Shown one piece after another: positions 29,423-52,063 of a DNA stretch of 64,000 nt. Source of the stretch: Myxococcales bacterium 68-20 (GTDB taxonomy: Bacteria > Myxococcota_A > Polyangia > Polyangiales > Polyangiaceae); contig MKVQ01000016.1 in assembly GCA_001899635.1 (NCBI GenBank), positions 293,454 through 357,453 on the forward strand, written 5' to 3'. The notes beneath the pieces are model-generated. The model ran no database searches and was not told where the DNA came from. It saw nothing but the letters and a program-made list of their open reading frames with translations. The position numbers and the translations under genes were made by a program. Position 1 is the stretch's first letter. Each line of letters opens with the position of its first letter.

Positions 29423-29681
29423 ATTTCCCTCAAGAGCTCGGCAGTGTTCTTTTCCACCGAGGGCTAACTGCGTGAGCGCGCTCGACTCTTCGCCCAGCGC
29501 CACTTCTTTCTAATCGCGTCGGTGCATACGTCAATGAGCGCATCGCACCTCGGAGAAACGCGCGAACAAGCGAGGGCTTACACCCTCACCAGCACGCTGC
29601 GTCTCGCGACGCTGCTTCCTGCCATCAGGATGACACGCGGACCTCGATCTTGTGCGTGTGCACGATAAGATCGCGTGGTCC

Positions 29682-30416
29682 ATGAGCAATCCGTCCCAGC
29701 CCGCATCGACTCCGGGCGACGTCGTCCTCATCGTCGACGACGAAGAGGACATACGCCGGCTCGTCTCCTTCAACCTCGATGAGGCGGGATTCCGCGTCGA
29801 GGCAGTGGACACCGGTGCAGGTGCGCTCACGGCGGCAGTCCGCTTGAAGCCAGCCGTCTTCGTCCTCGACCTCATGCTTCCGGATGTCTCGGGCACCGAG
29901 GTCTGTCGAAGGCTCCGCGCCGACCCCGATCTCGCGGACGCCGCCATCCTCATGCTGACCGCGCGGGGCGACGAGTACGATCGTGTCCTCGGCTTCGAGG
30001 TCGGCGCCGACGACTACGTCGTGAAGCCGTTCAGCGTGCGCGAGCTCGTCATGCGCGTGAAGGGGCTCGCCGTCCGCGCGCGCGAGCGACGCCTGGCGCG
30101 CGGCGCGAGCGACGAGGGCAGGCGGCTTCGCTGGCGCGGCCTCGAGATCGATCCCGTCCGCCATCGCGTCACCATCGACGGCGGCGATCTCGCCCTCCGG
30201 CCTCTCGAGTACAAGCTGCTCGCGATCTTCATCGAGCACCCCGGACGCGTCTTCTCGAGGACCGAGCTCTTGCAGGAGGTCTGGGGGATCAGCCCGGACA
30301 CGAACACGCGCACGGTCGACACACACATCCGCCGGCTGCGCGAGCGTCTTGCGACCTATAGCGAGGCGATCGAGACCGTCCACGGCTTCGGCTACCGCTT
30401 GCGCGATCCGTCGTAG
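29682..30416 (+). CDS. OmpR/PhoB-family response regulator
   Basis: A 244-residue regulator: receiver with the acidic pocket VDDEED, phospho-acceptor D63 in VLDLMLPDVSG, and MLTARGDEYDRVLGFEVGA with the K in VVKPFSVREL. A PhoB-type winged helix ends ETVHGFGYRLRDP. It is paired with the PhoR-like kinase that begins about 60 bases downstream. ATG 29682 is chosen because the receiver starts soon after; GTGs at 29652 and 29658 are in frame. I do not use the phoB symbol because no phosphate genes are nearby. Confidence 0.92.
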   Translation: MSNPSQPASTPGDVVLIVDDEEDIRRLVSFNLDEAGFRVEAVDTGAGALTAAVRLKPAVFVLDLMLPDVSGTEVCRRLRADPDLADAAILMLTARGDEYDRVLGFEVGADDYVVKPFSVRELVMRVKGLAVRARERRLARGASDEGRRLRWRGLEIDPVRHRVTIDGGDLALRPLEYKLLAIFIEHPGRVFSRTELLQEVWGISPDTNTRTVDTHIRRLRERLATYSEAIETVHGFGYRLRDPS

Positions 30417-30473
30417 CGAGGCTCGTCGCGATCCATGCAATCCTTCGCCTGCCGGATGCGGAGGTAGGTCCCG

Positions 30474-31925
30474 ATGACGCTCTCGTTCCGCTCGAAGCTA
30501 CTGGCCAGCCACGTCGCGCTCGTGCTCGTCGCCGGCGGCATCGCGTTCTTCACCCTCGATCGCGCGCTCACCGCCGATCTCCTCCACCAGCTCGACCAGC
30601 GGCTCGAGGAGCAAGGCAAGGGCGCGATCGAGTGGGCCGAAGGTGGCAAGCGCCATCCCGACCGCATCACGACGCGCATCGCGAACATCGTCGACGCGGA
30701 GGTCACGCTCTTCGAGAAGGACGGGACGGTCCTCGGCGCATCGAGCCCCGAGGCCCGCGGCGACGTCGGGCCCGAGCTCGCCGTCGCCCAGGCCGGCGGC
30801 GTCGGAAAGGCGACGCGCTGGCGCTCCGGGCGCGAGCTCCACTACGTCGCCGTGGCGGGCTCCGAAGGGACGGTGCTCCGCCTCGCGCAGCCGCTCTCCG
30901 AGATCAACGAGACGGTCGGCGCGATGCGCAGGCGGCTCGTGTTCGCGTCGACCCTCGCGATGCTCGTCGCGATCGTCCTCGGGTTCCTGGCTGCGCGCGT
31001 CGCATCGCGCCCGCTCCAGGAGATGACCACGACGGCGACGCGGCTCGCTCGGGGAGAGTTCGACGCCCCGATCCCCGAAGGGGACCGCGACGAGTTCGGC
31101 GTGCTCTGGCGCGCGCTGAAGTCGCTCGCGTCCCAGCTCAAGGCACGCATCGGCGACCTCGTCGAAGAAGGCGATCGCCTCCAGCGGCTGATGACGATCC
31201 GCCGCGACTTCGTGGCGAACGTCTCGCACGAGCTCCGTACGCCGGTGACGTCGATCCAGGGTTACGCCGAGACGCTGCTCGGCCAGGAAGAGACGCCGCC
31301 TTCGATCCGCGCGCAGTTCCTGGAGGTGATCCACCGCCAGGCACAGCGCATCGGCGCCCTGGTCGAGCAGCTCCTCGCGCTCTCGGAGCTCGAGGCACGG
31401 GGACGGGACGACCTCGCACGCGAGGCGATCGGCGTGCTGTCGATCGCGCGTCACGTCGCCGAGACGGTCGCCGGTCACGGCGAGAGTCACGGGAAGAGCA
31501 GGACGGTGACCGTCAATCTCGAGGGCATCCCCGAGGCGGTCCTCGTCCTCGCCGACCCGGAGGGCGTCGAGCGCGCGTTGCTCAACCTCGTCGACAACGC
31601 GGTCAAATACGGGAAGGAGGGCGGCACGGTGAGCATCACGGCAGCCGTGGCGACGGCCGGCGGGAAGGAGACCGTGACCATCACCGTGGCCGACGACGGC
31701 GACGGGATCGAGGCCAAGCACCTCCCGCGCCTCTTCGAGCGTTTTTATCGCGTCGACACGGGGCGCTCGCGACAACACGGCGGCGCAGGCCTCGGCCTCG
31801 CGATCGTGAAGCATCTCGTCGAGTCGATGGACGGCGCGATCGAGGTCGAGAGCGAGGTCGGAAAGGGCACCCGCTTCATCGTGACGCTGCCGGCTCCGCG
31901 CCCTTCGACGATGACCAAGCTCTGA
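30474..31925 (+). CDS. Sensor histidine kinase, PhoR-like
   Basis: A 483-residue membrane kinase: helix 1 (about 10-30), a periplasmic domain of about 120 residues, helix 2 (about 155-178), HAMP, then HisKA with FVANVSHELRTPVTSIQGYA (phospho-acceptor H252). HATPase_c carries NLVDNAVKYG, DDGDGI and GAGLGLAIVKHL. All catalytic boxes are intact. It follows its cognate regulator on the same strand. The PhoR-like label rests on the H-box region; the real signal is unknown. Confidence 0.92.
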   Translation: MTLSFRSKLLASHVALVLVAGGIAFFTLDRALTADLLHQLDQRLEEQGKGAIEWAEGGKRHPDRITTRIANIVDAEVTLFEKDGTVLGASSPEARGDVGPELAVAQAGGVGKATRWRSGRELHYVAVAGSEGTVLRLAQPLSEINETVGAMRRRLVFASTLAMLVAIVLGFLAARVASRPLQEMTTTATRLARGEFDAPIPEGDRDEFGVLWRALKSLASQLKARIGDLVEEGDRLQRLMTIRRDFVANVSHELRTPVTSIQGYAETLLGQEETPPSIRAQFLEVIHRQAQRIGALVEQLLALSELEARGRDDLAREAIGVLSIARHVAETVAGHGESHGKSRTVTVNLEGIPEAVLVLADPEGVERALLNLVDNAVKYGKEGGTVSITAAVATAGGKETVTITVADDGDGIEAKHLPRLFERFYRVDTGRSRQHGGAGLGLAIVKHLVESMDGAIEVESEVGKGTRFIVTLPAPRPSTMTKL

Positions 31926-31995
31926 CGAGGCCCGTTCGGGCGAAGTCTCGTGGCTTCAGTCACCAGGCTGCAGACGTCGGCAGACTGACCCGGCG

Positions 31996-32493
31996 TCACT
32001 GAAGGACGTGCATGCCGTACTGCTCGAGGGCGCCGGTCGAGATCATCGAGCCGTCCGGGAACCGGCAGAAGCCGTCCTCGTTGCCGGTCGAGTTGTGACC
32101 CGTCACGAGCTTCTGGCCGAGCTTCAGGCACACCTTCGTCCCCGCGCTCATGCCACCGGTGAGCTCACGCGCGGCGATCTCGACCGGCATGCCGCTCCGC
32201 ACCGGCCGGAGCGCGTCGCACGCGAGCTGGCCGCTCGCCTGGCGACACTGCGCGCTCACCCGCACGTTCTCGCGTGCGTAGAAGACGAAGGGCATCTGCT
32301 CGCCCTCCTGTGAGGTCCACACCTCGTTGAGGAACGGAGCAGACTCGAGCGTCGCGAGCGGTCCAGTCACCGTGTTCGTCGCGTCGGCAGGAGAGGTCGC
32401 ACCGCTCGACGACTGGTTGTCCTTCGAGGGACAGCCGAGGAACACAGCGGACGAGAGGAGAACGGCAGCGACCAACGGGACGTGCGAGCTCAT
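31996..32493 (-). CDS. Hypothetical lipoprotein
   Basis: A 165-residue protein opening with a signal peptide (SHVPLVAAVLLSSAVFLGC) and lipobox FLGC, then a Ser/Thr/Ala linker and a beta-rich domain (FVFYARENVRVSAQCRQ, PVEIAARELTGG, KVCLKLGQKLVTGHN). Four cysteines in the mature part may form disulphides. No family is recognised. It is convergent with the histidine kinase and followed upstream by the membrane Ser/Thr kinase on the same strand. Confidence 0.7.
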   Translation of the reverse strand: MSSHVPLVAAVLLSSAVFLGCPSKDNQSSSGATSPADATNTVTGPLATLESAPFLNEVWTSQEGEQMPFVFYARENVRVSAQCRQASGQLACDALRPVRSGMPVEIAARELTGGMSAGTKVCLKLGQKLVTGHNSTGNEDGFCRFPDGSMISTGALEQYGMHVLQ

Positions 32494-32561
32494 CCAGTGG
32501 TCATACAGGACTCGAGCCCGAAGGTCACCGACGGCATCCACGCCGCCTCACGACACGCGGC

Positions 32562-33953
32562 TCAGGGTGGGTGCGAAACAGGGCTTCGCTCGAGGACGTA
32601 CGCGCCCACCGCAGCGCAGGCGACGAGCGCGATCAGCAGCACGACGACGAGCGCGCGCACCGAGCTTCGCGATCGCGACGGCTCAGGCTCGGTCGCACTG
32701 GCGAGCGCAGGCGGCGCTCCCGAGGTCGAGCCCGAGCCGGAGCCGGTCGTCGGTCCACGGAAATGATCCGGCGGCTGGCTCGGCAGCGGTCCGCGCATCC
32801 GCGCAGTCGCATGTGGAGCCGGGGCCAGAGAGCGGTCGCGAACGCCGTGTGCCGGATCGCTCGCGAGCGCCGGAGCGGCCTGGGTCTGGTCGAAGGCGAG
32901 GCCCACTTCGTCGTCGGCGACTGCGTCGCGAAGGAGCGGACCGCGAGCGGACAGCGCGGGCGCAAACGGCAGCGTCTCGTCGGACGGATCCAGCCGCTCG
33001 GTCTCGAGCGAGGACGCGCCCGGCTCGCGCGCCTTCGACGCCACGGGCACCGTCATGCTGTCCGCCGTGAAGACCTCCGCGCGTGGGCCTCGAGCGGAGC
33101 GAAGTGCTGCCTGCATGTCGCGGGCGCTCGGCCATCGATCGTCCATCTCGAGCTCGAGCGCGCGATCGATCACGCTCGACACCGACGGCGACACATGGGG
33201 CGCGAGCTGGCGGATCGGCCGCGAACGACGCGTCGCGCTCGCGATGAGCTGCTCGTGGATCGACTGCGCGTCGTCGTGGACGTAGCGGCCGGTGATCGCC
33301 GTGAAGAGCGTCGCGCCAAGGCCCCACACGTCGGAGCGCGCGTCGACGGCGTCGCGACGACCAGCGGCCTGCTCGGGCGGCATGAACTCGGGGGTGCCGA
33401 TCGTCACGCCGGTCTGCGTTGCCTCCGAGTGAGCGTCCTTCATCCGAGCGAGACCGAAGTCGAGGAGCTTGATCTCCCCGTCCCTCGTCAGAAAGACGTT
33501 CTCCGGCTTCACATCGCGATGAACGATCCCCTTCTCGTGCGCGACGGCGAGCACGTCGAGCGCGTCGTCTGCGAGATCGAGCACCTCGTCGATCGGGAGC
33601 GCTCCCCCGAGCCGTAGCCGCCGGGCATCGATCGTCTCTCCGTCGAGCAGCTCGAGGACCAGGAACACTGCGCCGTCCTCCGTGACGCCGTCATCGAGGA
33701 CGGCGACGACGCCCGAATGGCCGACCGCGTTCGCGACGTACCCCTCGCGCAGGAAGCGAGCGCGCACCTGGGGATCGCGAGACAGCTGCGCGTGGAGCAT
33801 CTTCAGGGCGGCACGGTGCCCATTCCGATGCGTCGCGGCGTAGACGGTGGCCATTCCGCCCGAACCGATGCGGGCATCCACCTGCCACTTCCCGTTGATC
33901 ACGGTGCCGACGCGACCCTGTCCCCGCGGTCCGCCCGCCCAGGCTTCGCTCAC
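32562..33953 (-). CDS. Membrane-anchored Ser/Thr protein kinase
   Basis: A 463-residue kinase. The catalytic domain (about 20-285) has glycine loop GSGGMATVYAA, AALKML with the anchoring lysine, HRDVKPEN, DFGLAR, and GTPEFMPPEQ in the activation segment. A Pro/Ala-rich juxtamembrane region follows, and one helix near the C-terminus (VVLLIALVACAAVGAYVL) is followed by only ten residues outside. All catalytic residues are intact. The start is GTG 33953 preceded by GGGGGATGGG. It may signal to FHA proteins such as the one at 12 kb, which is inference. Confidence 0.93.
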   Translation of the reverse strand: MSEAWAGGPRGQGRVGTVINGKWQVDARIGSGGMATVYAATHRNGHRAALKMLHAQLSRDPQVRARFLREGYVANAVGHSGVVAVLDDGVTEDGAVFLVLELLDGETIDARRLRLGGALPIDEVLDLADDALDVLAVAHEKGIVHRDVKPENVFLTRDGEIKLLDFGLARMKDAHSEATQTGVTIGTPEFMPPEQAAGRRDAVDARSDVWGLGATLFTAITGRYVHDDAQSIHEQLIASATRRSRPIRQLAPHVSPSVSSVIDRALELEMDDRWPSARDMQAALRSARGPRAEVFTADSMTVPVASKAREPGASSLETERLDPSDETLPFAPALSARGPLLRDAVADDEVGLAFDQTQAAPALASDPAHGVRDRSLAPAPHATARMRGPLPSQPPDHFRGPTTGSGSGSTSGAPPALASATEPEPSRSRSSVRALVVVLLIALVACAAVGAYVLERSPVSHPP

Positions 33954-34114
33954 CCCATCCCCCAGCGCGAAGGTTCGCGATCGAGCGTATCACGCTCCCG
34001 GAGACGGCAAAGATCGGGGGTACCGGTGACGAGCGGGGTTCGACGATGCGGACGCCGAACGGACGCGTCGAGCCGACCTCCACGGCTCGAGCCGTGGAGA
34101 TCGAGCGATGCGTC

Positions 34115-34519
34115 TCAGTTGACGGCTTCGTTCTGGATCGACGCGCGCTCGCGATTCGCGGCGGCCTCCGCCTCCGCCTTCTCGAGCTCCTGACGCACGA
34201 CGCGCTCGACCTCGGCCTGCATCTGCCCCGAGAGCGTCTTCCACCACATCACGAAGTCCGCCTGGAGCGACCAGAGCGGGTACTTGAAGGTCGCCGGCTT
34301 GTTCTTCTCGATGAAGAAGTGGCTGATCCACGCGGGGCCGTAGCCGAAGAACGGCGCAACGAGCAGGAGCCAGCGCCGCTTCGTGAGCAGACCCATCGCC
34401 GCGCAGGAGACCGCCGCTGTCGTGCCGACGAAGTGGAAGATGCGCGTTGCCTTCTTCTTGTGCTCGCCGACGTAGTAATCCCAGAACTGCTCGAACGTCT
34501 CGATCTTGGCGTCGGCCAT
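34115..34519 (-). CDS. Mpo1-like (DUF962) membrane protein
   Basis: A 134-residue protein of the DUF962/YGL010w family, whose yeast member Mpo1 is a dioxygenase acting on 2-hydroxy fatty acids. Family blocks are FWDYYVGEHKKKATRIFHFVG, GYGPAWISHFFIEKN and FKYPLWSLQADFVMW; the histidines in GEH, RIFHF and ISHF are the likely metal ligands. Two hydrophobic segments are seen. The C-terminal 35 residues form a charged coiled coil. ATG 34519 has GAGGTGGGCC upstream; the longer frame to 34765 is repeat-derived and rejected. Confidence 0.8.
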   Translation of the reverse strand: MADAKIETFEQFWDYYVGEHKKKATRIFHFVGTTAAVSCAAMGLLTKRRWLLLVAPFFGYGPAWISHFFIEKNKPATFKYPLWSLQADFVMWWKTLSGQMQAEVERVVRQELEKAEAEAAANRERASIQNEAVN

Positions 34520-34854
34520 GGCCCACCTCGGGGAAAGAAGCGGGGACCACCTTCCCCAGCGCGACGAAGGATGACCCCGTGACGCGATGGTGTCCAGTCG
34601 GGGCGGCCGAATCCGAGGGTGGGTCGTGAGCGAGGTCGCCGGGGCCGTCAAGAGTGCGATGGCCGGCAGCTTTCGGCCCGAGGCGCTCGCGCGAGCTCGG
34701 GGCTGCGCCCCAACGACCCGCGGGCGAGCCCCAACACCCCGCGGGTGAGCCCCAACGCCCCGCAAAGGTGCGCCGGGTGGATCACCGCGCCACTTTCTGG
34801 CAAGGTTCGCGCCGGAATCGGGAGCGATCCCGGATCCGAACTTCTTACCTTCTC
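34520..34854. other. Divergent intergenic region with tandem repeat, 335 bp
   Basis: Lies between the Mpo1-like gene and the ankyrin-fusion gene, so both promoters are here. It contains the 21-bp tandem repeat listed next. No coding region supported by homology is seen, although two frames run through it. Confidence 0.6.
34708..34763 (+). repeat. 21-bp tandem repeat (2.7 copies), dispersed motif copy 2
   Basis: Units ccccaacgacccgcgggcga (34708-34727, plus g) and ccccaacaccccgcgggtga (34729-34748, plus g), then a partial unit ccccaacgccccgc (34750-34763). The segment before it, ggggctgcg, restores the motif seen at 13111. Confidence 0.75.
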
Positions 34855-37800
34855 ATGTCCGCAGGCCGTCTGGCATCCATTCGTGGGGACCTCCTCTCGA
34901 GGCTCGTGCTTGCCGTGGTGCAGATCACGGCGATCGCGTGGTTCTCGCCCGGGCAGGGGCTGCCGCTCGACGACGCGTGGATTCATCAGGTCGTCGCGCG
35001 CACGTTCGCGGACACGGGAACGCTCGGCTATGCGCCCGGACAGCACGGCGCCGCGGCGACGAGCTACCTCTGGGCGGCGCTCCTCGCGATCGGCTTCAAG
35101 ATCCCGCTGTTCGAGCCGACCCGCTGGGCGCTCGTCCTGAACGGGCTCGCCGCGCTGGCGACCGGCCAGCTCCTCCACTCGATCATCCTCCGCGCGCGCC
35201 CCGACGGCGTCACGACACGCCAGTGGCACGCGACGTCGTTCGTCACGACGCTGCTCGCTTCGATCGCTCCGAACATCCTGTGGTTCATCTGCTCGGGAAT
35301 GGAGGCGATGCCGTTCCTCGCACTGTCGCTCGCAGCGATCTGGGCGGCGACCGGCGACGAGGAGAAGCCTCGCCGCGCGATCATCGCGGGGCTCGCGGCC
35401 GGAGCGCTCGCGCTCGTGCGCCCCGAAGCGGCTCCGCTCGGTGGTCTCCTCGCCGCGCACGCGTTCCTCCGGAAGCGGACGCGCAGCATCGCGCGGATCG
35501 CGGTGCCGTGGCTTGCGAGCGTCGGCCTTTACGTCGTCTCGAACGTCGTGAAGACCGGCCACGCCGCGCCGAGCACGCTCAGCGGCCGGCGGTGGCTCTG
35601 GTTCGAGATGTCGAGCGGCCTCTCGCGAAGTGACCGCGCGCTCGATTTCCTCGACGCCTGGGGGACGCGGCTCGGGAGCTACACGTTCGATACGAGCCTC
35701 GGAGTCGTATGGGTGCTCGTCGCCCTCGCGGCATACGGAGCGCTCCGGCTGGTCCTCGGTTCCGGCCGGAAGCTCAGGGAGAGCCTCGTCTCCGAGGACG
35801 CGCCGAAGCTCCTCTTCGCGTGGGCGATGTTCCACGCGGCGTTCTACTTGCTGCTCCTCCCGACCCCGGGTCACGGCGGCCGCTATCAACCGTTCACGCC
35901 GCTCCTCTTCGCAACGTGCCTGCCGATCGGCGCCGCGTTCTTGCTCCATGAGCTCGCACGCATCGCCGGAGCCGCGGAGAAGATCCGCTTCGGCTGGTTC
36001 GCCGCCATCGCGATCACTCCGTGCATCGCGCTCGGCGCGCCGATCGCGGAGTCGCTTCGTCACGCCAATGCGCTCGCCGTCGCTCACATCGACGCGACGG
36101 AGCTCGAGGCAGGCCGCTTCGTCGACACGCTGCCGGAGGGCACGATCGCGAGCTTCGACATCGGCGGCACCGGTTACGTCTCGCGACGGCCCGTGGTCGA
36201 CCTCGGCGGCCTCTCCGACCCGAAGACGGCGGCGCTGCTCGAGTCCGGTCGGATCTCGACCTGGCTCGTGGAGAACCAGGTGCGGTGGCTCGTGCTCCCA
36301 CAGTCGTACGAGTCGACGCTCCCGACCTTCGACGACTACCGCGCGCGCCTTCACCTCGCCGGCAACGCGTCGCTCCGCCTCGAGCCGGTGCGTGTCTTCG
36401 AGACGCCGTTCGAGCGATGGGAGCCGGCGATCCGCGCCACGTGGAACGCAGCGCCGAAGCAGGTCGTCTACGAGGTCACGTACACGAAGGAGGCCGGACC
36501 GCGCGAGGTCCCGCTGGTCGCGCCCAAGGCGTCCCGCGCCATCCCCGATCCCGCGCGCCTCGTCCGCGTGCGAGACCGCATCGTCGCCGAGCACATGCTC
36601 GCGACGCTCGCCGCGTGGGACCTGCCCGTCGACGTGAAGCTCATCCCGTCGCGCCCGGAAACGGAGTCGTCCGCCACGAGCGCGGCGCCGGGCGCTGCGT
36701 CGGCCACGAAGCTGCCCGGCGACCCGTGCACGATCAGCCTCGGATGGTGGGGCCTCTCGATCGACGGCTGTGCGTCGGCATCCGGCGGCGATCCGCGCGT
36801 GCTCCGCGCGATGGCGAGCGAGATGGCCGGCCGCTACTTCGACGCCGGCGATCTCGGCGGCGCGCTTCGCGCGATCCCGCACGTCGTTGCGGAAGCGCGG
36901 CGGCGCGTCGATCCCGGCTTCCATCCGCCGCTCGCGTCGCTGACGCAGCCGCTCCCCGGTGGGATGCGCCTCTCCCCGATGCGCGCCGCGGGCAGTGGCC
37001 TTCTGGTCTTTGCAGGCGTGCTGGCGGCGGCGATCGTCATCCAGACGGCCGCGCGCCGGAACGTGCGCCTCTCGCGCCTCGTCGCGCTCGCGCGCTCGCG
37101 GCTGCCGGCGACGACGGCATCGACGCTGCTCCTCCTGACCGTGAGCACCATCGCGACCCTCGCCGTCGGCTGTCAGCAGCGCGAGGACGACGTCGGACAC
37201 GCGATCACGAAGAGCCGCGCCGCGGTCGAGACCGCGATCGCGAAGGGCGGGAGCGTCGATCCCGTCGGCTCGCAGCCGGCGCCGCTCGTGACGGCTGCCA
37301 CCGCAGGCAACGCCGAGATCGTCGCGCTGCTCCTCGCCCGCGGTGCACGCCTCGACGTGCGAACCGCCGACGGATCGACCGCGCTGCACGTCGCCGCGCG
37401 CAGGGGACACCATGCCGTCGTCACGGTCCTCGCAGCTGCGATGGCCTCGAACGCCGTCACGCTCGATGCCCCCGCCGGCCCGCGAGCTCGAACGGCGCTC
37501 CACGACGCGGCCGCGGCTGGCTCCATCGACGGCGTGAACGCGCTCCTCAGGGCCGGTGCGGATCCGAACAAGGCGGACTCGTTCGGGCAGACGGCACTCC
37601 ATCTCGTCGCCGCGATCGAGCCGCTTCGAGCCGCCGCGATTGCAGAGCGGCTCGCCCTCGCCGGCGCGGATCCTCGGACGGCGGACGCGCGCGGCTTCAC
37701 GGCCTTGCACGCCGCCGCCGTCACGGACAATCTCCCCCTCGTGGGGACGCTGCTCCGAAGCCCGGATCTGATCGATGTGAAGACGCCGCCCGGTGAGACG

Positions 37801-38064
37801 GCGCTCGACCTCGCCCTCCGCTACGGTCGTGACCGCGCGGCCGAGGGGCTGATGAACGGGGGCGCGACGATCGAACGCGAAGATGCCTGGCCCCCGCTCC
37901 ATCAGGCAGCGCGGATGGACGCCGTCGACCGCGTGGCGAACCTCATCGCGATCGGGGCCGACACGCAACGGCGCGCACGCGGCAAGACCGCGCTCGAGCT
38001 CGCCGTCGAGCATGGAAGCAAGCGCGTCGAAGTGCTGCTCCGAGAGCGAGCTCGAGAGCGATGA
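34855..38064 (+). CDS. GT-C-like membrane protein fused to a C-terminal ankyrin domain
   Basis: A 1069-residue protein. Residues 1-400 contain about ten hydrophobic helices and an early acidic motif (GLPLDDAWIHQ) of the kind seen in GT-C lipid-linked sugar transferases. Residues 420-640 form a soluble domain. After further helices (about 715-735 and 750-770), the text LATLAVGC (C773) looks like a lipoprotein signal end. Residues 780-1069 carry six or seven ankyrin repeats (GSTALHVAARRGHHAVV, GQTALHLVAA, GFTALHAAAV). The start is ATG 34855. It overlaps the next gene by ATGA. I do not know the substrate. Confidence 0.8.
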   Translation: MSAGRLASIRGDLLSRLVLAVVQITAIAWFSPGQGLPLDDAWIHQVVARTFADTGTLGYAPGQHGAAATSYLWAALLAIGFKIPLFEPTRWALVLNGLAALATGQLLHSIILRARPDGVTTRQWHATSFVTTLLASIAPNILWFICSGMEAMPFLALSLAAIWAATGDEEKPRRAIIAGLAAGALALVRPEAAPLGGLLAAHAFLRKRTRSIARIAVPWLASVGLYVVSNVVKTGHAAPSTLSGRRWLWFEMSSGLSRSDRALDFLDAWGTRLGSYTFDTSLGVVWVLVALAAYGALRLVLGSGRKLRESLVSEDAPKLLFAWAMFHAAFYLLLLPTPGHGGRYQPFTPLLFATCLPIGAAFLLHELARIAGAAEKIRFGWFAAIAITPCIALGAPIAESLRHANALAVAHIDATELEAGRFVDTLPEGTIASFDIGGTGYVSRRPVVDLGGLSDPKTAALLESGRISTWLVENQVRWLVLPQSYESTLPTFDDYRARLHLAGNASLRLEPVRVFETPFERWEPAIRATWNAAPKQVVYEVTYTKEAGPREVPLVAPKASRAIPDPARLVRVRDRIVAEHMLATLAAWDLPVDVKLIPSRPETESSATSAAPGAASATKLPGDPCTISLGWWGLSIDGCASASGGDPRVLRAMASEMAGRYFDAGDLGGALRAIPHVVAEARRRVDPGFHPPLASLTQPLPGGMRLSPMRAAGSGLLVFAGVLAAAIVIQTAARRNVRLSRLVALARSRLPATTASTLLLLTVSTIATLAVGCQQREDDVGHAITKSRAAVETAIAKGGSVDPVGSQPAPLVTAATAGNAEIVALLLARGARLDVRTADGSTALHVAARRGHHAVVTVLAAAMASNAVTLDAPAGPRARTALHDAAAAGSIDGVNALLRAGADPNKADSFGQTALHLVAAIEPLRAAAIAERLALAGADPRTADARGFTALHAAAVTDNLPLVGTLLRSPDLIDVKTPPGETALDLALRYGRDRAAEGLMNGGATIEREDAWPPLHQAARMDAVDRVANLIAIGADTQRRARGKTALELAVEHGSKRVEVLLRERARER

Positions 38065-39887
38065 CGACCGGCGAGAGGCCTGGAGGGGAGCCCTCGACCG
38101 CGAGGCTGCCGGCATCGAGCGCGAGCTCCACCTACGCCGCGAAGCGCGGCTCCCCTGCCCTGGAGCGAGCGCTGACCGCGATCCGCACGAACGCCGGATG
38201 GCTCTTGCCCGCGCTCGTCGCGATCGTCGGCATCGTCCCCAGCCTCTGGGCGCTCCGCGCGCAGACGTTCGGCATCTTCGGGCGCGACCAGGGGATCTTC
38301 CAGTACGTCGCCTGGGCGATCCGCAACGGCGAGCGGACGTACCGCGACATCCACGAGATCAACGGACCGCTCCCGCACGCGTGGCATTTCGTGATGCAGC
38401 TCCTCGGCGGCGAGGACGAGCACGTGTTCCGGTCGATCGACACGGTCATGCTCACCCTCGCGTATACGCTGGCCGGAGCGACGCTTCCCCGCTGGCTCGG
38501 CCTCGAGCTCGGCACCGGCAAGTCACGCGCGCGAGGGGTCGTCCTGTGGGCGCTCGCCGGGCTCACCATGCTCGGCGCGCAGTACACCCGCTACGACTGG
38601 TGGCACACCGCGCAGCGCGAGGCGTTCTATTCGATCCTCGTCCTCACGTCGGTCTCGCTCCAGGCGATCGGACACTCGGCCCGCGACCGGCGACTCGCGC
38701 TCGGTGCGTTCCTGCTCGCAGGGATCACGACCTCGCTCACGTGGTTCGGCAAGCCGCCGTGCGCGATCTTCTCGGTCCTCCAGGGCGCGGTCCTCCTCCT
38801 CGATCGGAAGAACATCGCCCTCCCCCTCAAGCACGCGCTGGGAAGCGCGGTCGCCGGGGGGCTGGCGGTGGGGACGAGCATGTTGGCCTTCATGCTCGCG
38901 TACGAGGACCTCGGCCGCGGCATCGAGATGTTGTCGAAGGTGCCTCGCCTCCATCACACGATCTGGAACGAGACACTCCTCGGCTCATACCGCGCCTACA
39001 ACAACGCGCCACGGCTCGACTGGGCGATGGCCTCCTTCGCAGGCTTCATCGCGGCGTTCTTCCTGCTGAAGCTCCCGCGCCGCGCGCTGCTCGCCGCCGT
39101 GCTCCCCACGGGGGGATTTCTCGTCTTCGCACTCCAAGGCAAGGCGTTCCCGTATCACCTCCACATGCTGACGGCCGGGACGGCCGTCGCGCAGCTCGTC
39201 ATCCTCGGCGCGACCGCGCAAACGCTGCAGAATGCACATAGCAAGCGCCCGCGCCTGCACGACGTGCTTGCGGTCGCCGCCGTGTTCGCCGCGCTGGCGC
39301 TCGGCCTGAAGTCGGGCGAGGACGCGTCGAAGTCTCCCGCCGTCCGGGGCGAGTGGGCGAAGATCGGCTCGACCGCGGAGAAGCGAGCGAGCCGCGCCTA
39401 CTTCGAGCGCTTTGCCTGGGGCGACTACTTCGCCAACGACCTCCGCGACGCTGCCGCCTACCTCACGTTCCACACGCGCCCGGACGAGCGGGTCCAGACG
39501 TATGGCTTCGATCCGTACCTCCTGTTCCTCGCGCGGCGGAAGAGCGCGTCGCCCGTCATGTACAGCTTCGAGCTGAACGTCGACGCCGCGCTCGAGGGCG
39601 GCCCGGGCGCCCGGCCCTCCGCCGAGCTCAAGAGCTGGCTCCGCGCTTACCGCGACGACGCCGAGCAGCTCGTACTCCGGAGCGTCGAGGCGTCACCGCC
39701 TGCGGCCTTCACGCTGCACGATCGCGCGCCGTTCACCCATCCGGCCAACGCCGAAGAGGACTTCGCGAAGCACTGCCCCGCGCTCTTCGAGTGGATGAGC
39801 GCGCGCTACACGTTTGCAGCGGCGTTCGGCACGGTGCGGATCTGGCTTCGACACGACGTCATGGCCCGCTCGACAGCTCTTCATTGA
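38061..39887 (+). CDS. GT-C-like polytopic membrane protein
   Basis: A 608-residue protein with about ten hydrophobic segments between residues 45 and 420 and a soluble C-terminal third. An early loop GIFGRDQGIFQYVAWAIRNG with acidic residue and RDIHEINGPLPH resembles the first extracytoplasmic loop of GT-C glycosyltransferases using polyprenyl-phosphate sugars. The C-terminal region has YGFDPYLLFLARRKSASPVMY, similar to DUF2029/ArnT-like proteins. It is coupled by ATGA to the ankyrin-fusion gene. Donor and acceptor are unknown. Confidence 0.75.
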   Translation: MTTGERPGGEPSTARLPASSASSTYAAKRGSPALERALTAIRTNAGWLLPALVAIVGIVPSLWALRAQTFGIFGRDQGIFQYVAWAIRNGERTYRDIHEINGPLPHAWHFVMQLLGGEDEHVFRSIDTVMLTLAYTLAGATLPRWLGLELGTGKSRARGVVLWALAGLTMLGAQYTRYDWWHTAQREAFYSILVLTSVSLQAIGHSARDRRLALGAFLLAGITTSLTWFGKPPCAIFSVLQGAVLLLDRKNIALPLKHALGSAVAGGLAVGTSMLAFMLAYEDLGRGIEMLSKVPRLHHTIWNETLLGSYRAYNNAPRLDWAMASFAGFIAAFFLLKLPRRALLAAVLPTGGFLVFALQGKAFPYHLHMLTAGTAVAQLVILGATAQTLQNAHSKRPRLHDVLAVAAVFAALALGLKSGEDASKSPAVRGEWAKIGSTAEKRASRAYFERFAWGDYFANDLRDAAAYLTFHTRPDERVQTYGFDPYLLFLARRKSASPVMYSFELNVDAALEGGPGARPSAELKSWLRAYRDDAEQLVLRSVEASPPAAFTLHDRAPFTHPANAEEDFAKHCPALFEWMSARYTFAAAFGTVRIWLRHDVMARSTALH

Positions 39888-40901: not shown

Positions 40902-41052
40902 CACGATCACGCTCCGTGATGCTGGCCGCTCGGCGGACGCGTCCACGCCCCGCAAGCCACATACAGCCGCGCTAGTCTCCCATTGGCGATCTTGCGCCTT
41001 CGGGCGGTGACGCGTTGAGGAGCGCCATCCTCCGGTGGTAGGAGTCGGTAGG

Positions 41053-43086
41053 ATGCGCAGCGGTGTCGACATGGCGAAGAGCTTCGGACCGCTGAAACGG
41101 TCGGCGCCCACTGCCTTCATCGTCCTCGCCATCCTCTGCGCGCTGTCGCTGACGCTGCCGAAAGCAAGCCGTCAGCCGCTCATGGAGACGACGCTCTGGT
41201 CCCTCGTCGTGATCGTCGCCTTCATCGGCTGGGGATCGCTCGTCGCCTTTGCGGTCGCAGGCCGCGAACGCGTCGATCTCGGATTGCGAGCCACCTGGGG
41301 CGCGGCCGCCATGGCGTTCGTCGGCGGGGGCCTGATGGTCCCGTCGCTCATGACACGGGCCGCCGCGATGAACATGGTCGTGGCTGGAGCTGCGCTGGCC
41401 ATCGTCGACACCGTTCGCCAGCGAAGCGCCGTTCACCGGCGCTTCGCGGCCGCGTGGCGCTGCGCCCGACGCGAGCCTCGTCTCGTTCTCCTCACGGGCG
41501 TCGTGCTGGCGCTGCTCGTCATCCATTATCTCGCCGGGATCGCCGAGTGGCACACCGACCCCTACGACGACGACATCGCCTATCTCAGCTTCGTGAAGAA
41601 GCTGCTCCAGACCGGCAGCTTCCCCGAGCCCTTCAGCTTTCGACGGCTCTCGGCTCTCGGCGGACAGACGTTCTTCGCCGCGCTCGTCAGCCTCCGAGCG
41701 GCCCCACACCAGGCACACACGTTCGATCGAAGCGTCTGCATCCTACTCGTTACGCTCCTCCTCGCTGGTCACCGGTCACGAGGACGTCGGCCGTCGTTCC
41801 TCTTCTCGGTCGCCGCCGTCCTGGTAGTGCCGATGCTGCCGCTCATCACGCGGAACACAGCTTCGCACTACTCGGCGATCGCGTTCTTCCTGGCGCTCTT
41901 CCGCACCGTCGTATGGGCCGGAGATCGCGAGCGGTCTCCGTGGAAGGCCGCGCTTCCAGTCGCTCTCGTGGCCGTCGTCGTCTGCACACTCCGTCAGAAC
42001 TACCTCCCCATTCCGGCCACCTTCCTCGCCGTGAGCTACGGGGCGCGCGCCATCCACGCTGGTAGCTGGAGGGAGCGGTTGCTGGAGCCGGCATGGGCCG
42101 CGGCGTTCTCCGTAGTCGCGCTGGCCCCCTGGCTGATCGCCGCGTGGCAATCGAACCACACGTTCCTCTATCCGCTCATGCTCGGCACGTTCAACCGCGC
42201 TCTTCAGCTGGGTAGCGACAACGTGACGAAGGTGGAGGAGATCCGTGTCCTCATCCGCACCGTTCTCGAAGGCGTGCCCATCTACAGCATCGGCCTCTTC
42301 TTCGTCGGAGCGATGTTCACGCGAGAGAACGATCGACGGAAGCCCCTCTTCGCGTTCGTCATTGCGTCGTGCGCCGGATTCCTTCTGCTCATTCACGCAA
42401 TCAATCAAGGCGACCCGCAGAACCTGGGTCGCTATGCGTGCGGCTTTCTCGTCGCCGGAGCCCTCGCGACGATCCTGACGACCGGGCTCGTTCGCTTCCA
42501 CGGGCGTGCACGTCGAATACATGTCGCGGCGGCGTTGACTCTGCTCGCGCTCGTTCTCCAGCTCGGGAGATCCGCCGACGATTCGTACAAGTTCTATGCG
42601 CGCGCGCTGCCCAACATCGACGCGGCGCTCCGAGAGTTGCCGCGCTCGAAGGAGACCGAGAAGATCCAGCAGGACCGGTACGGTTGGGTCCAGAACGCGG
42701 TCCCCGAAGGCGAGCGCATCGCGGTGCTCCTCGACGAGCCCCACTGGCTCAACTTCGCGCGCAATCCGATCTGGAATCTCGACATGCCCGGCTACTCGAG
42801 CCTTCCGCCGGGTATGCCGTTCTTCCTCGGCAGCCAGAAGCTGGAGGAGTACTTCCTCCAGGTCGGCATTCGCTACATCGCGTTCGTTCGCCCGGACAGG
42901 TCGACGTATCACTATCGTCGCGACTACTGGATGCAGCTACTGGTCGACGAGATGGAGATCTGGCGCACCTTCGCACCATACGTCATCGACATGAGCGACA
43001 ATCTCGTCGAAATCTCGACGAGGCATCGACGGTTGATCGAGAAGGACGGCATCATCGTCCTCGACCTAGCGCAGTCGGCGCCATGA
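41053..43086 (+). CDS. GT-C-like polytopic membrane protein
   Basis: A 677-residue protein with about twelve hydrophobic helices (residues 20-520). The acidic loop EWHTDPYDDDIAYLSFVKKL is the likely catalytic loop of a GT-C glycosyltransferase. The C-terminal 150 residues are soluble and include RYGWVQNAVPEGERIAVLLD and YRRDYWMQLLVDEMEIW. ATGs at 41053 and 41071 are both possible starts; the first has GGTAGG nearby. It overlaps the lipoprotein gene downstream by ATGA. It probably transfers a sugar to a lipid-linked or surface glycan. Confidence 0.72.
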   Translation: MRSGVDMAKSFGPLKRSAPTAFIVLAILCALSLTLPKASRQPLMETTLWSLVVIVAFIGWGSLVAFAVAGRERVDLGLRATWGAAAMAFVGGGLMVPSLMTRAAAMNMVVAGAALAIVDTVRQRSAVHRRFAAAWRCARREPRLVLLTGVVLALLVIHYLAGIAEWHTDPYDDDIAYLSFVKKLLQTGSFPEPFSFRRLSALGGQTFFAALVSLRAAPHQAHTFDRSVCILLVTLLLAGHRSRGRRPSFLFSVAAVLVVPMLPLITRNTASHYSAIAFFLALFRTVVWAGDRERSPWKAALPVALVAVVVCTLRQNYLPIPATFLAVSYGARAIHAGSWRERLLEPAWAAAFSVVALAPWLIAAWQSNHTFLYPLMLGTFNRALQLGSDNVTKVEEIRVLIRTVLEGVPIYSIGLFFVGAMFTRENDRRKPLFAFVIASCAGFLLLIHAINQGDPQNLGRYACGFLVAGALATILTTGLVRFHGRARRIHVAAALTLLALVLQLGRSADDSYKFYARALPNIDAALRELPRSKETEKIQQDRYGWVQNAVPEGERIAVLLDEPHWLNFARNPIWNLDMPGYSSLPPGMPFFLGSQKLEEYFLQVGIRYIAFVRPDRSTYHYRRDYWMQLLVDEMEIWRTFAPYVIDMSDNLVEISTRHRRLIEKDGIIVLDLAQSAP

Positions 43087-43685
43087 ACGTAGGCATCGCG
43101 ATCCGAAGCCTCGTCATGATGTCCGCGCTCGCCACGTGCGCGGCATTGGGCTGTTCGAAGAAGCGCCCCGATCCCGAGGCCACCAGTGAGATCGCCCGGC
43201 GCGAAGCCTATGCGAGGGCGCTCCTCGTCGATGGTGGAGCTGTGGCCTATCGCATCGGATCGAACGCCGACGTGCAGTTCGCCGACGGGTTCTCGATCGT
43301 ACAGTTCGATCCGGCGGACGACTGGCGGAGCCACGCGTTTCGCTGGATGGGCCCGAAAGGACACGTTCGGCTCCGCACGCAGGGCAACGAGCCGATGCGA
43401 TTGAAGCTCGGCGGGTGGGTGAACGAAAAGGTCATCGACACGAAGCCCGAGATCAGGCTCTACATCGACGGTCAACCCCTCTCCCCCCAGGCGCCGAGCC
43501 TCGTCGATCAGAACCAGTTCTTCGTCTTCGAGGTCGACGTCGATCCGACCCTGTTCCACGGTCAGGAGTGGGTCAACCTCGACATCGTCGCGTCGGCCGT
43601 CGCATGGCACTGGTCCGACGCACCGGAGCTGAAGGTGATCGTGGTGTTCGAGCTCGGCTGGGAGCGGTTGAACGCCCCGCACTGA
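43083..43685 (+). CDS. Beta-sandwich lipoprotein
   Basis: A 200-residue protein with a signal peptide and lipobox (SALATCAALGC), then a beta-rich domain: GFSIVQFDPADDWRSHAFRW, LGGWVNEKVIDTKPEIRLYI and FFVFEVDVDPTLFHGQEWV. It resembles the C-terminal beta-sandwich parts of the neighbouring large membrane proteins (for example the end of the gene at 43695), as if the domain occurs both fused and free. It is coupled by ATGA to the membrane gene upstream. Function is unknown. Confidence 0.7.
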   Translation: MNVGIAIRSLVMMSALATCAALGCSKKRPDPEATSEIARREAYARALLVDGGAVAYRIGSNADVQFADGFSIVQFDPADDWRSHAFRWMGPKGHVRLRTQGNEPMRLKLGGWVNEKVIDTKPEIRLYIDGQPLSPQAPSLVDQNQFFVFEVDVDPTLFHGQEWVNLDIVASAVAWHWSDAPELKVIVVFELGWERLNAPH

Positions 43686-43694
43686 CAACCCGGC

Positions 43695-45869
43695 TCAAGG
43701 TTCGACGGGATCGATGTTCATGATCGCGAAGGCGACACCGCCGCCGTAGTCCGCAACGCCGCGGAACGAGAACACGAGCTCCTTCACAGGATCGCCTGCG
43801 ACGAGCTCCTTCGGCACCACGAACGAGATCTCCTGGCGTGTCTGCGCCGGGCCCATCGCATGCGTCGGGAGCACCGTCTTGCCGTCGATCGTCGCGGCGA
43901 GCGTCTGGTCCTCGATGGCGGCCCACGTGACTAGCTTGATGCGTTGATCACGACTCTGATCGAACCGAACGAGGATGGTCGATTCGTAGCTCGGCGGGGC
44001 GTCGTTCCGATACTCGAGCCCTCGCTTCGTGAGGACGGTTCGCTGGAGCTGTCTTGCCACGGACCAGCAGAACCCCGGTACGCCCGGATAGTGCTCCGCG
44101 AATCGGAACCCCGTCAGCTTGTGGACGTCGGACTCGGGCGTGCCGAAGTCGATGTAGCGTGTCGGCTCGGCCTTCTCGAGCTTCTTGCGGAGCTCCGCCC
44201 GACGCGCGTCGAGGTCGACCCCGAGGCGAAACACGCGGACGCCAGGCAGCGTCAGCACCTCGGTCCCGCTGCGGCGAAGCCCTTCGAGGACCCTGGCATC
44301 CCACTCGGAGATCTCCCCGAGTGCGTCGCTGCGAAGGACATACGGTGTACCGAACACGGCCCACTGGCTCGTTCGCGGCAGCAGGAACCAGAGCGACTTG
44401 TCGATCAGGCGGGTGCCGGGGTCATCGTAGTAAACCGCATGGATGATGCCCGACTTCGTCTTGCTCGCGAGCTCCATATAACTGTTGGGCGTATGCTCGA
44501 CGACCTCGGTCGGCATATGGAGATGCCGGTCGAAGAAGTACTGGATCGGACCGTCCGACATCAGGTTCGTGACGAGGAAGTCGGAGGTGTCGTTCTTGGC
44601 AAGGTAGTCGGCGACCTTCGCAGTGGCGTCACGATCTAGGAACGTCTTCGGGATGCGCGCCATGTGGACCGCCTGCCACGCGACGAAGACGAACGCGGCG
44701 GCGTACTGGAGTTGCTGCCCCTTCTTGCCGAGCCACATGATGCAATAGCCGCAGCCGACGGCGAAGAACGGCACCATGACCTGCGAGGGCAGGACTTGCT
44801 CGACCGAGAGCTCGGAGAAGACGAGGATGAACGGGAGCGCGGCAACGAGCAGGATGCTGATGGACCCGGGGTCGTTCCGGAGCTCGTTCGACCCGAAGAG
44901 GAGCGATCGAATGCTCCCGCGGAGCCCAAGCGCGCGCGCCCCGGCAAGCAATCGCCCGACGACGGCGGCCGCAGCGACGAACACCGCTGGAGTGAAGTAC
45001 GACGTCCAGCGCGCCACGATGATGATGACGAACCCGGAGCGGTAGTCGGGAGAGAACCTCGTCGTCGCGCGCTCGAGGAACTGGAAATGAACGTCCTCGA
45101 GGAAGGCCTTCCAACCGATTGCGCCGGTGACGAAAGCGCTCTTCGTCACGATCGCGAGGGCGCCGCTGATCGCGATGATCGCCGCGATCCTCAGCATGCG
45201 CTTCGAGAGGAGGGGCACCCCGAGAACACGCGCCGTCAGCAGCGCCGCGATGGGAAGGAAGAAGTAGTAATCGTACGCGGTCAGGAAGCAGACGTAGGTC
45301 CCGACGACGACGGCGACACGACTCCAACGGCCCTCCCCCTCGACGAGCTTCGGAACGGCCGCGAGCGCCGTCATGCCGCTCGCAAAGAGGATCGGCGCCT
45401 GGTGCATCGCATCGGCGAACTGGATCCAGAGGAGGTTCGTCGCGCAGAGGATGGTCGCCCAGCTCGCAAGGCCCTTGCCCCAGACCTGGGCGACGTAGCG
45501 GTAGAACGCGCCGAGGCCGACGCCCGCGAACGCGATCGCGAAGAAGCGGTAGACCGTGATGTCGAGCGGGCTGCCCCCCGCGATCTTGCGGACGGTTCCG
45601 TAGAAGATCTCCGCGAACGGCGGGTAGTGCGTGTAGCGATACGACTCGTTCGTCAGCGGGCCGACGTCGAGGATGTCGGTGAACGATGTGGCGATGAAGC
45701 CGTACTTCGACGAGTAGTTCAGCGTCGTGAGGACGTTCGCGTCGGACCAGGGATCACCCCAGTTGAGCCGTAGCGGCTCGCGGGCCGAGATGAGGAGGTA
45801 CGCGAAGACGACTCCAACTGCGGAGAACAGAAGAATGCGCTGGCTGCGCGAAGCGTCCGACCTAAGCAT
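43695..45869 (-). CDS. GT-C-like membrane protein with C-terminal beta-sandwich
   Basis: A 724-residue protein. Helices start at residue about 12, and the first loop contains LNWGDPWSDANVLTTLNYSSK and HYPPFAEIFYG, a GT-C-like acidic loop. About ten more helices run to residue 410, followed by a mixed region (YFFDRHLHMPTEVVEHTPNSY). The C-terminal 150 residues are a beta-sandwich (LVTWAAIEDQTLAATIDGKT, QEISFVVPKELVAGDPVKE) resembling carbohydrate-binding or glycosidase accessory domains. It is convergent with the lipoprotein gene. The substrate is unknown. Confidence 0.75.
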   Translation of the reverse strand: MLRSDASRSQRILLFSAVGVVFAYLLISAREPLRLNWGDPWSDANVLTTLNYSSKYGFIATSFTDILDVGPLTNESYRYTHYPPFAEIFYGTVRKIAGGSPLDITVYRFFAIAFAGVGLGAFYRYVAQVWGKGLASWATILCATNLLWIQFADAMHQAPILFASGMTALAAVPKLVEGEGRWSRVAVVVGTYVCFLTAYDYYFFLPIAALLTARVLGVPLLSKRMLRIAAIIAISGALAIVTKSAFVTGAIGWKAFLEDVHFQFLERATTRFSPDYRSGFVIIIVARWTSYFTPAVFVAAAAVVGRLLAGARALGLRGSIRSLLFGSNELRNDPGSISILLVAALPFILVFSELSVEQVLPSQVMVPFFAVGCGYCIMWLGKKGQQLQYAAAFVFVAWQAVHMARIPKTFLDRDATAKVADYLAKNDTSDFLVTNLMSDGPIQYFFDRHLHMPTEVVEHTPNSYMELASKTKSGIIHAVYYDDPGTRLIDKSLWFLLPRTSQWAVFGTPYVLRSDALGEISEWDARVLEGLRRSGTEVLTLPGVRVFRLGVDLDARRAELRKKLEKAEPTRYIDFGTPESDVHKLTGFRFAEHYPGVPGFCWSVARQLQRTVLTKRGLEYRNDAPPSYESTILVRFDQSRDQRIKLVTWAAIEDQTLAATIDGKTVLPTHAMGPAQTRQEISFVVPKELVAGDPVKELVFSFRGVADYGGGVAFAIMNIDPVEP

Positions 45870-49690: not shown

Positions 49691-50935
49691 ATGCTTGAAG
49701 TAAAGCTTATGCGCCGCGTGGACCACGTGGTCGGGAACGCGCTCTGCTCGGCGTTCGCGGTCGGCAAGCGGCTCGCGCGGCCCTTCAGGCGCACGTCCAC
49801 GACCTACAAGAAGATCTGCGTGATGAAGTTCTTCGGGATGGGATCGATCGTGGTCGCCACCCCGAGCCTTCGAGCGCTCCGCGATCAGTTCCCCGGCGCG
49901 GAGATCCACTTCGTCACCTTCAAGCAGAACGCGCAGCTCCTCGAGATCCTCGGTCTGACCGACAAGCACTACTTCATCGACAACTCGAGCCCGGCGGCGT
50001 TCGTGAAGTCCACGTTGAAGGTCGCTCGCGATCTACGACGCGCGGGCTGCGACCTCGTCATCGACCTCGAGTTCTATGCGAAGTTCCCGCTCGTCCTCGC
50101 GAGCCTAGGGAATGTCCCGAAGAAGGCGGGGTTCTATCTCAATCCCGAGCCGTGGCGCCGTGAGCTCCTCGATGTTCCCGGTTGGTACAACCACTACTTC
50201 CACACGAAGGACATCTTCCTCTCGCTGGTGTACCTGCTCGCGAAGGACGACTACTACTACCTCGACTTCGAGCAGTTCTCGGCGAAGTACCAGTACCCGC
50301 AGATCACGCCGACGGACGCACAGGTCAAGAGCGTGCGGGCCAAGCTCCAGGCGCACGGCGCCAGCGCAGGTTCGCGCATCTTCGTCATCAACCCGAACAC
50401 GTCGCCAGAGCTCGCCCCCGAGGCCCGCAAGTGGCCGGCGGAGCGTTATGGCGATCTCGCTCGGCAGCTCCTCGCCGAGTATCCGGATGCGCACGTCGCG
50501 TTCATCGGCACGAAGTCCGAGCAGGCGTATGTCGATGCCGTGGCGGCGACCGCCCGCGACAAACGCGCGTTCGGAATGGCCGGCGAGCTCGATCTCCGCG
50601 AGCTGCTCGCCCTCTTCTCGATCACGGATCTCCTCGTCTCCAACGACAGCGGGCCGATGCACCTCGCCTGCCTCGTGAATACTCCCGTGGTTGGCCTTTT
50701 CTTCGCCGACACACCGACGCTCTTCGCTCCGATCGGCGAGCGGACGGCCTCCGTCGCTCCGTCGCTCTATTCGATGCCGCTCTTCACGGTCTACAACGGC
50801 AAAGACGTCGTGATGGGGCGCTCCACCGACGTCGTCCGCAACGTTGCCGCGTGTACGGTCTCGGTCGAGACCGTGATGGATCGGGCTCGCAGCATCGTGG
50901 CCTCTCCGCCGCGCGCCGCGCTGTCGATCAACTGA
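49691..50935 (+). CDS. Glycosyltransferase family 9, heptosyltransferase-like
   Basis: A 414-residue GT-B enzyme. The N-terminal part shows KKICVMKFFGMGSIVVATPSL, the GT9 acceptor-side motif of WaaC/WaaF. The C-terminal part shows INPNTSPELAPEARKWPAERY and the donor-site SNDSGPMHLACL. Its place immediately before an ADP-heptose precursor set strongly suggests it transfers heptose from ADP-heptose. The first 35 residues are a basic extension. It precedes the gmhA-hldE fusion gene by about a dozen bases, so one transcript is likely. Confidence 0.9.
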   Translation: MLEVKLMRRVDHVVGNALCSAFAVGKRLARPFRRTSTTYKKICVMKFFGMGSIVVATPSLRALRDQFPGAEIHFVTFKQNAQLLEILGLTDKHYFIDNSSPAAFVKSTLKVARDLRRAGCDLVIDLEFYAKFPLVLASLGNVPKKAGFYLNPEPWRRELLDVPGWYNHYFHTKDIFLSLVYLLAKDDYYYLDFEQFSAKYQYPQITPTDAQVKSVRAKLQAHGASAGSRIFVINPNTSPELAPEARKWPAERYGDLARQLLAEYPDAHVAFIGTKSEQAYVDAVAATARDKRAFGMAGELDLRELLALFSITDLLVSNDSGPMHLACLVNTPVVGLFFADTPTLFAPIGERTASVAPSLYSMPLFTVYNGKDVVMGRSTDVVRNVAACTVSVETVMDRARSIVASPPRAALSIN

Positions 50936-50947
50936 CGAGCATTGTCG

Positions 50948-52063
50948 ATGAGCACCAACCTTCGTTCCTTCGAGCTCATGATCGCGCAGTCCATCCGCGC
51001 CGGGATTTCCGTGCGCTCGCTGCTGCTCGAACGATGCGATCGGGACATCCTCGCTGCCTGTAGGCTCGTCGTCGACTGCGTGACCAGTGGCCACAAGGTC
51101 CTGTTCTGCGGCAACGGCGGAAGCGCCGCCGACGCGCAACACCTCGCAGCTGAGCTCGTGGGCCGATACGTGAGCGAGCGACGCGCACTGCCGGGTATCG
51201 CGCTCACAGTCGATACGTCGATCCTCACCGCGATCGGCAACGACTACGGCTTCGAGCGGGTGTTCGCACGGCAGGTCGAGGGCCTCGGCGCCCCCGGCGA
51301 CGTCTTGGTCGCGATCACCACGAGCGGCGGGTCTCCGAACGTGCGCGCCGCCATCGAGGCTGCTCGGGCAAAGGGAATGAGAGTCATCGGGCTCACCGGC
51401 GAGAAGGGCAAGGAGTTTGCCGGGCTCTGCGACGTCGGCATCGCGGTTCCCTCCCGCATCACGTCGCGCATCCAGGAATGCCACATCACGATCGGGCACA
51501 TCCTCTGCGAAGCGATCGACGCATCCCTCGCTGCTTCGCCGAGCGATGGAAGGTTGGAGCCGCCTGCGGGAAGCGCACGGACGACAACTTCGCCGAAGGA
51601 GCTCACGCGCGCCGATCTCGCCCGCCTCCGAGCGAGCGTGTCGGCAGACAAACGGACGATCGTCTTCACGAACGGCGTCTTCGACGTCGTTCATGCCGGC
51701 CACCTGGCACAGCTCGGTGCAGCACGCGCTCTCGGCGACGTGTTGGTCGTGGGCGTCAACACGGACGAGACCGTACGCGCCGCGAAAGGTGAGGGCCGCC
51801 CGGTCTTCCCCCTCGCCGAGCGCCTGCAGATGCTCGCGGCGCTCGAGATGGTCGACTTCGTCCACCCGTTTGCCGAGGCCACTCCAGTCGAGACGATCGA
51901 AGCGCTTCGCCCGGACGTCCACTGCAAGGGCGCGGACTACGAGAACAAGCCGATTCCGGAGCGGACTGTGGTGGAGGGCTACGGCGGCCGCGTCGTGCTC
52001 ATCCCGCTGGTCGAAGGCCGCTCGACGACGCGGACACTCGACCTCCTCGGCGCCAGGCGCTGA
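50948..52063 (+). CDS. Fusion: GmhA sedoheptulose-7-P isomerase + HldE cytidylyltransferase-type domain
   Basis: A 371-residue bifunctional protein. Residues 1-195 are a SIS-fold isomerase of the GmhA type ([47 protein letters not shown]). A linker of about 20 residues leads to an adenylyltransferase domain (about 225-371) of the HldE/RfaE C-terminal kind: [16 protein letters not shown] with the HxGH site, KGADYENK and the GRSTT motif. The two halves perform the first and last nucleotide-activation steps of ADP-heptose synthesis, with GmhB and the kinase encoded next door. The start is ATG 50948. Confidence 0.92.

Follow-up and report, generated by a model that had tools for sequence, protein, structure and literature searches.

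The gene at 34855..38064 on the + strand of the window (the whole 64,000-nucleotide stretch of Myxococcales bacterium 68-20 DNA analyzed here) is a natural in-frame fusion of a GT-C-like membrane transferase gene with an ankyrin lipoprotein gene. It is a single open frame of 1069 aa plus stop. Reading from the N-terminus, its product has a GT-C-fold membrane part with its last TM helix, then a basic loop, then another hydrophobic segment, which ends in LATLAVGC (Cys773), and finally ∼290 residues of ankyrin repeats. A lipoprotein signal, apparently still selected, is placed inside a polytopic enzyme, and the split state is visible in a relative. We consider it likely that a GT-C gene and an ankyrin lipoprotein gene were joined in frame in a one-time event, and that the internal signal exports the ankyrin part, with Cys773 being lipidated and perhaps marking a cut. 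The first-pass annotation, which had read the gene as a lipoprotein gene fused in frame to a membrane transferase, was right on the sequence and on the fusion; it also gave the coordinates, the frame, and the position of Cys773 (codon TGT at window 37171-37173) correctly. An antisense ORF of 1155 aa (34648-38115) in the ORF list spans the fusion gene; we regard it as a shadow ORF, the gene being GC-rich.

Spread of the fusion and its split counterpart

Full-length in-frame orthologues were found in six other genomes. The in-frame fusion without a stop is present in 7 of the 12 genomes of the genus (the window genome, G001, G002, G003, G005, G006, and G008); stops flagged within two of the matches (L011 and L012) are the ends of those genes themselves. 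The first-pass annotation had raised the possibility that orthologues would be two separate genes and the join an assembly or sequencing error. No support was found for such an error, and it is ruled out by the seven in-frame orthologues: the same in-frame join recurs in seven separate species genomes, and the other six proteins are 54-74% identical to the window protein.

The GT-C part was found at E ≤ 1e-20 in 11 of 317 class genomes, namely the seven fusions, G009, G011, G032, and G270. The homologues in G009 and G011 and the C106 homologue of G270 extend little beyond the last helix, ending in a basic tail, and the G032 homologue stops earlier (frame of 547 aa). A second G270 copy (C218) runs off its contig, its 3′ end being absent from the data. 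Three genomes of the genus (G004, which is 72% complete, G007, and G010) gave no GT-C match at 1e-20. A tree with 17 rows grouped all seven fusions in one clade (100/100); the row of G270 C218 was labeled as separate despite the missing 3′ end, the fused clade is independent of it, and the L025 outgroup gave no row. The wider search for relatives kept the best 80 of 337. A virus origin was rejected, none of 22 pattern matches in viral contigs being a relative. G003 also carries, at a contig end (C93, L052), part of another copy of the fusion gene: its 5′ portion, covering residues 1-550 at roughly 80% identity to the window protein, which may be a strain variant or a contig overlap.

A check of orthologues for separate genes, as the first-pass annotation had proposed, revealed the split state in G270, a genome of the same family in which both parts are separate genes of one cluster. 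An ankyrin gene, a homologue of a second polytopic GT-C-like gene (GTC2), and an unfused GT-C gene lie there in that order on one contig and strand. The ankyrin gene (L145, 5959-6879, − strand) encodes 307 aa if a GTG start is assumed, begins VTRGKTLFFVYAALVALGC, and has an N-terminal lipoprotein signal. By blastp its product matched the fused C-terminus at 36% over 321 aa (E 4e-34), with its lipobox Cys aligned to Cys773.

In the window, GTC2 (38061..39887, + strand; no family match) begins with an ATG that overlaps the stop TGA of the fusion gene (ATGA), and the G270 ankyrin gene overlaps its GTC2 homologue likewise (TGATG). GTC2 lies directly 3′ of the ankyrin part in G270 and in 6 of the 7 fusions; the exception is G002, where the fusion is located near a contig end with no GTC2 after it and a GTC2 homologue is found about 20 kb away. 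In G020, two copies of GTC2 are cut short by contig ends, and the region of interest is not reached. Because GTC2 overlaps or follows the ankyrin part in G270 and in most fusions, we infer from this one split genome that the ankyrin-GTC2 pair is the older neighborhood and that the GT-C gene was joined in front of it. The order in the only genome showing the split state is ankyrin-GTC2-GT-C, not GT-C-ankyrin. The explanation that we prefer then requires either a rearrangement or a second copy of the GT-C gene, which counts against it.

The GT-C module and its possible role

The GT-C module comprises residues 1-707 (34855..36975, + strand). A model predicted from 54 aligned sequences reached a mean pLDDT of 88.8, and by our own reading of it 11 TM helices (residues 2-423) precede an extracytoplasmic domain at about residues 424-707. 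The last GT-C TM helix (residues 708-734; 36976..37056, + strand) is a helix in the model and is also the last element of the unfused homologues. In an earlier structure prediction, made from seven sequences, the GT-C part came out poorly (mean pLDDT over all of 59.4), and only the ankyrin part of that model was used. A hydropathy scan returned 9 segments before residue 424 vs. 11 in the model, with the same parity, and flagged two more inside the ankyrin repeats; the topology described here is a prediction from the model, the scan being a simple one.

Searches of the polytopic part against Pfam and NCBIfam gave no match above cut-off, and no match to a GT-C Pfam family. Residues 128-237 gave a weak match to the LA_3751/LA_3752 putative glycosyltransferase family (NF047440), which at 21.5 bits is far under the cut-off of 200 bits. 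The predicted model did match solved structures in the PDB: the best, AglB/PglB, AftB, and ArnT, aligned over 424-437 residues with VIA Z of 17.4-18.0, at an identity of 9-18% in the structural alignments to these solved GT-C enzymes. The best E in a Foldseek search with the model was 1.2e-5, with low TM-scores (0.3-0.4 across the full model). The likeness to AglB/PglB, AftB, and ArnT lies in the predicted fold over about residues 1-546, the acidic residues in the first outer loop, and the extracytoplasmic C-terminal domain, whereas the fusion protein has two more C-terminal helices and the ankyrin lipoprotein in addition.

In GT-C glycosyltransferases, the first extracytoplasmic loop typically supplies an acidic residue for catalysis. 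D39, D40, E150, and G342-R343-Y344 are invariant in the 54 aligned sequences, and D39 and D40 sit between the model helices 2-30 and 88-113. Helix parity in the model would put the conserved acidic and GRY residues on the outer side, together with the 424-707 domain and Cys773, and would leave the basic loop inside. Residues 625 and 639 of the window protein form a Cys pair inside the extracytoplasmic domain, with a spacing of 14 that is constant in all seven fused orthologues; the pair is possibly a disulfide, in line with the topology.

For the GT-C part, the presumed activity is transfer of a sugar from a lipid carrier to a glycan of the envelope. About 11 kb downstream of the fusion gene is an ADP-heptose/LPS-core-like set (GT9, a GmhA-HldE-C fusion, and PfkB), examined in the window, which fits an envelope-glycan role. 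A GmhA-like sedoheptulose-7-phosphate isomerase is fused here to an HldE/RfaE domain II-like adenylyltransferase (50942-52063, + strand) and is adjoined by a GT9 heptosyltransferase (49691-50935) and a PfkB kinase (52590-53564). Such a GmhA-like/HldE fusion with GT9 and PfkB genes is an unusual arrangement of ADP-heptose synthesis.

The ankyrin repeats and the predicted internal lipoprotein signal

The ankyrin-repeat domain (residues 780-1069; 37192..38061, + strand) contains about eight repeats. It matched PF12796 with an E of 2.9e-45 in six stretches, and in the first predicted model the chain beyond residue 800 forms, with high confidence, eight helix pairs of the ankyrin type. The domain presumably binds a protein partner in the envelope. 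A search of 108 family genomes with the ankyrin part (E ≤ 1e-12, candidates scored) yielded nine genomes, i.e., the seven fusions, G270 (2.1e-29), and G243 (3.9e-13); the G243 protein has no visible lipoprotein signal and was set aside. In a phylum draw of 377 genomes, 19 reached E ≤ 1e-14: three of the fusions (those included in the draw), G270, and a further 15 that matched in the ankyrin repeats alone (0 of 15 reach the lipobox). The window genome also encodes a more distant stand-alone ankyrin lipoprotein (C48, L001; E 4.7e-12).

Both this C48 gene and the G270 ankyrin gene, as well as Tli, resemble the fusion in having ankyrin repeats behind a lipoprotein signal, but in all three the signal is N-terminal and the protein is separate. 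Tli is described as an ankyrin lipoprotein and T6SS immunity protein that neutralizes a T6SS phospholipase (PMC10294624). A Tli-like immunity role was considered and rejected, no T6SS phospholipase Pfam family being present in 17 neighboring frames (7 neighbors and 10 downstream).

The basic loop between the two parts (residues 735-751; 37057..37107, + strand) is predicted to be cytoplasmic and to form the n-region of the internal signal, with 6 K+R and 0 D+E when counted between the hydrophobic segments (residues 730-756 of the window protein). The predicted type II (lipoprotein) signal follows at residues 752-773 (37108..37173, + strand) with the lipobox AVG-C. Segment 757-773 of the window protein has a mean hydropathy of 2.0, and the model places a helix at residues 752-770. 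We predict from the sequence that Cys773 is the lipidation site and that 772/773 is a possible cut. The signal is thus internal, its Cys being residue 773, and not N-terminal as in the G270 homologue.

A PROSITE-style lipobox pattern fits at the Cys773 equivalent in 6 of the 7 fused orthologues; L012, with Pro at −3, fails, and position −3 is Leu in just one of the seven. Lipobox-like text alone is weak evidence, because 7 of the remaining 44 Cys in these proteins fit the pattern too. It is lifted above chance by the Cys being kept in all seven within a hardly conserved segment and by its alignment with the lipobox Cys of the stand-alone homologue. In all seven fusion proteins this Cys closes the second hydrophobic segment, provided that L014 is shifted by one column. 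The pN/pS over residues 734-772 was in the range of 0.79-1.67, values that are rough for so short a segment, vs. 0.36-0.49 for the GT-C part and 0.45-0.58 for the ankyrin part (5 of 21 orthologue pairs, taken among the orthologues other than L013 and L014), and the length of the join varies too. A join that evolves almost freely yet keeps its Cys is as expected of a working lipoprotein signal.

Two other readings of the join were considered. The last hydrophobic segment could merely anchor an extracytoplasmic ankyrin domain, with Cys773 an unmodified relic; the lipobox consensus is weak and fails the pattern in one of seven, as such a relic would allow, but the Cys ends a fast-changing stretch in all seven and is found in the stand-alone homologue as well, so we regard a plain signal-anchor as unlikely. 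Alternatively, an internal start might yield a separate ankyrin lipoprotein besides or instead of the fusion. In-frame GTG, ATG, or TTG codons do precede the Cys in five of the seven orthologues, and Tli is reported to have alternative starts downstream of its signal (PMC10294624). However, L011 and L014 are without an in-frame ATG, GTG, or TTG in the 62 codons before the Cys, which rules out a conserved internal restart, and an SD-like 4-mer (one of four) lies upstream of only 1 of 21 listed starts, at −17; a nested gene is thus very improbable.

Proposed origin, possible processing, and gene surroundings of the fusion

We propose that a GT-C gene and an ankyrin-lipoprotein gene of one cluster fused once, in the ancestor of part of a Labilithrix-like genus. 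The transferase C-terminus would be cytoplasmic and the lipoprotein signal would start in the cytoplasm with its basic end, so an end-to-end fusion would have kept both topologies. The former signal peptide would now be the last TM segment and take the ankyrin repeats across the inner membrane; this insertion of the chain, with the signal as its last membrane segment, is suggested by descent and by the predicted topology. Helix parity, the basic loop, and descent from a lipoprotein indicate that the ankyrin repeats are very probably outside the cytoplasm, behind a lipidated Cys. This would position them in the envelope, next to a probable glycan-building enzyme.

The kept Cys suggests that Lgt would lipidate Cys773. 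By analogy, and less surely, LspA may cut before it, in which case the transferase would stay in the inner membrane. The window genome has LspA (PF01252) in two genes and Lgt (PF01790) homologues in four places. In M. xanthus, Lys was found at +2 in 8 of 12 inner-membrane lipoproteins (PMC3222651). The residue at +2 after the Cys in the seven fusions is Q, G, G, G, A, A, and G; with no Lys at this position, a released lipoprotein would not be held at the inner membrane by that rule and, without a known inner-membrane retention residue, could reach the outer membrane.

A further-reaching reading, whose odds we put slightly under even, is a membrane polyprotein, in which the internal site would be lipidated and cut by LspA to give an inner-membrane glycosyltransferase and an outer-membrane ankyrin lipoprotein at a fixed 1:1 ratio. 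The chain might instead remain whole: Cys773 would receive diacylglycerol, LspA would be unable to use an internal signal, and the ankyrin domain would be tethered to the transferase at the inner membrane and recruit a partner or acceptor to it. Retention of the fusion in seven genomes hints that staying joined may be useful, but the join is little constrained apart from the Cys and hydrophobicity, with no hint of a shaped two-domain interface, and the cut and uncut forms predict near-equal sequence; we hold the lipidated, uncut form to be possible, though rather doubtful. If the polyprotein reading is true, signal peptidase II can process a signal that follows a dozen TM helices. By virtue of the fusion the cell may make a transferase and an ankyrin lipoprotein from one chain, perhaps cutting them apart. 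The fusion also offers a way to test whether an internal signal can serve Lgt and LspA.

Descriptions of lipoprotein signals generally place them at the N-terminus, and annotation tools that check N-termini alone would miss lipoproteins with such an internal signal. A polytopic protein and an exported domain are joined in one chain through an internal signal peptide in FbcH, the cytochrome b/c1 precursor of Bradyrhizobium, which differs from the fusion in its signal peptidase I site and its cytochrome domains. In the polytopic Rieske protein of Streptomyces, an internal signal peptide likewise exports the C-terminal domain, but it is a Tat signal, and a lipobox is not mentioned in the part of the report available (PMC13186574). 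We recognized no printed precedent for an internal lipobox in the open-licence literature, judged from titles and abstracts. Ankyrin lipoproteins were known before, as were internal signal peptides, and each part of the fusion belongs to a known kind; what is new is their combination, in which a polytopic enzyme retains a lipoprotein signal within its chain.

Two gene groups near the fusion were also noted. At 29652-34765 of the window lie an Mpo1-like (PF06127) gene, oriented divergently to the fusion gene, a two-component pair, a kinase gene, and a small gene of lipoprotein-like type; this set adjoins the fusion gene in G006, G005, and G003 and was not found in the searched stretches of G008, G001, and G002. 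Near the fusion, at 41035-45869, there are a lipoprotein-like gene and a further two polytopic genes of GT-C-like type, and homologues of the first of these GT-C-like genes and of the lipoprotein-like gene are found near the fusion in G001 and G003, in the other orientation.
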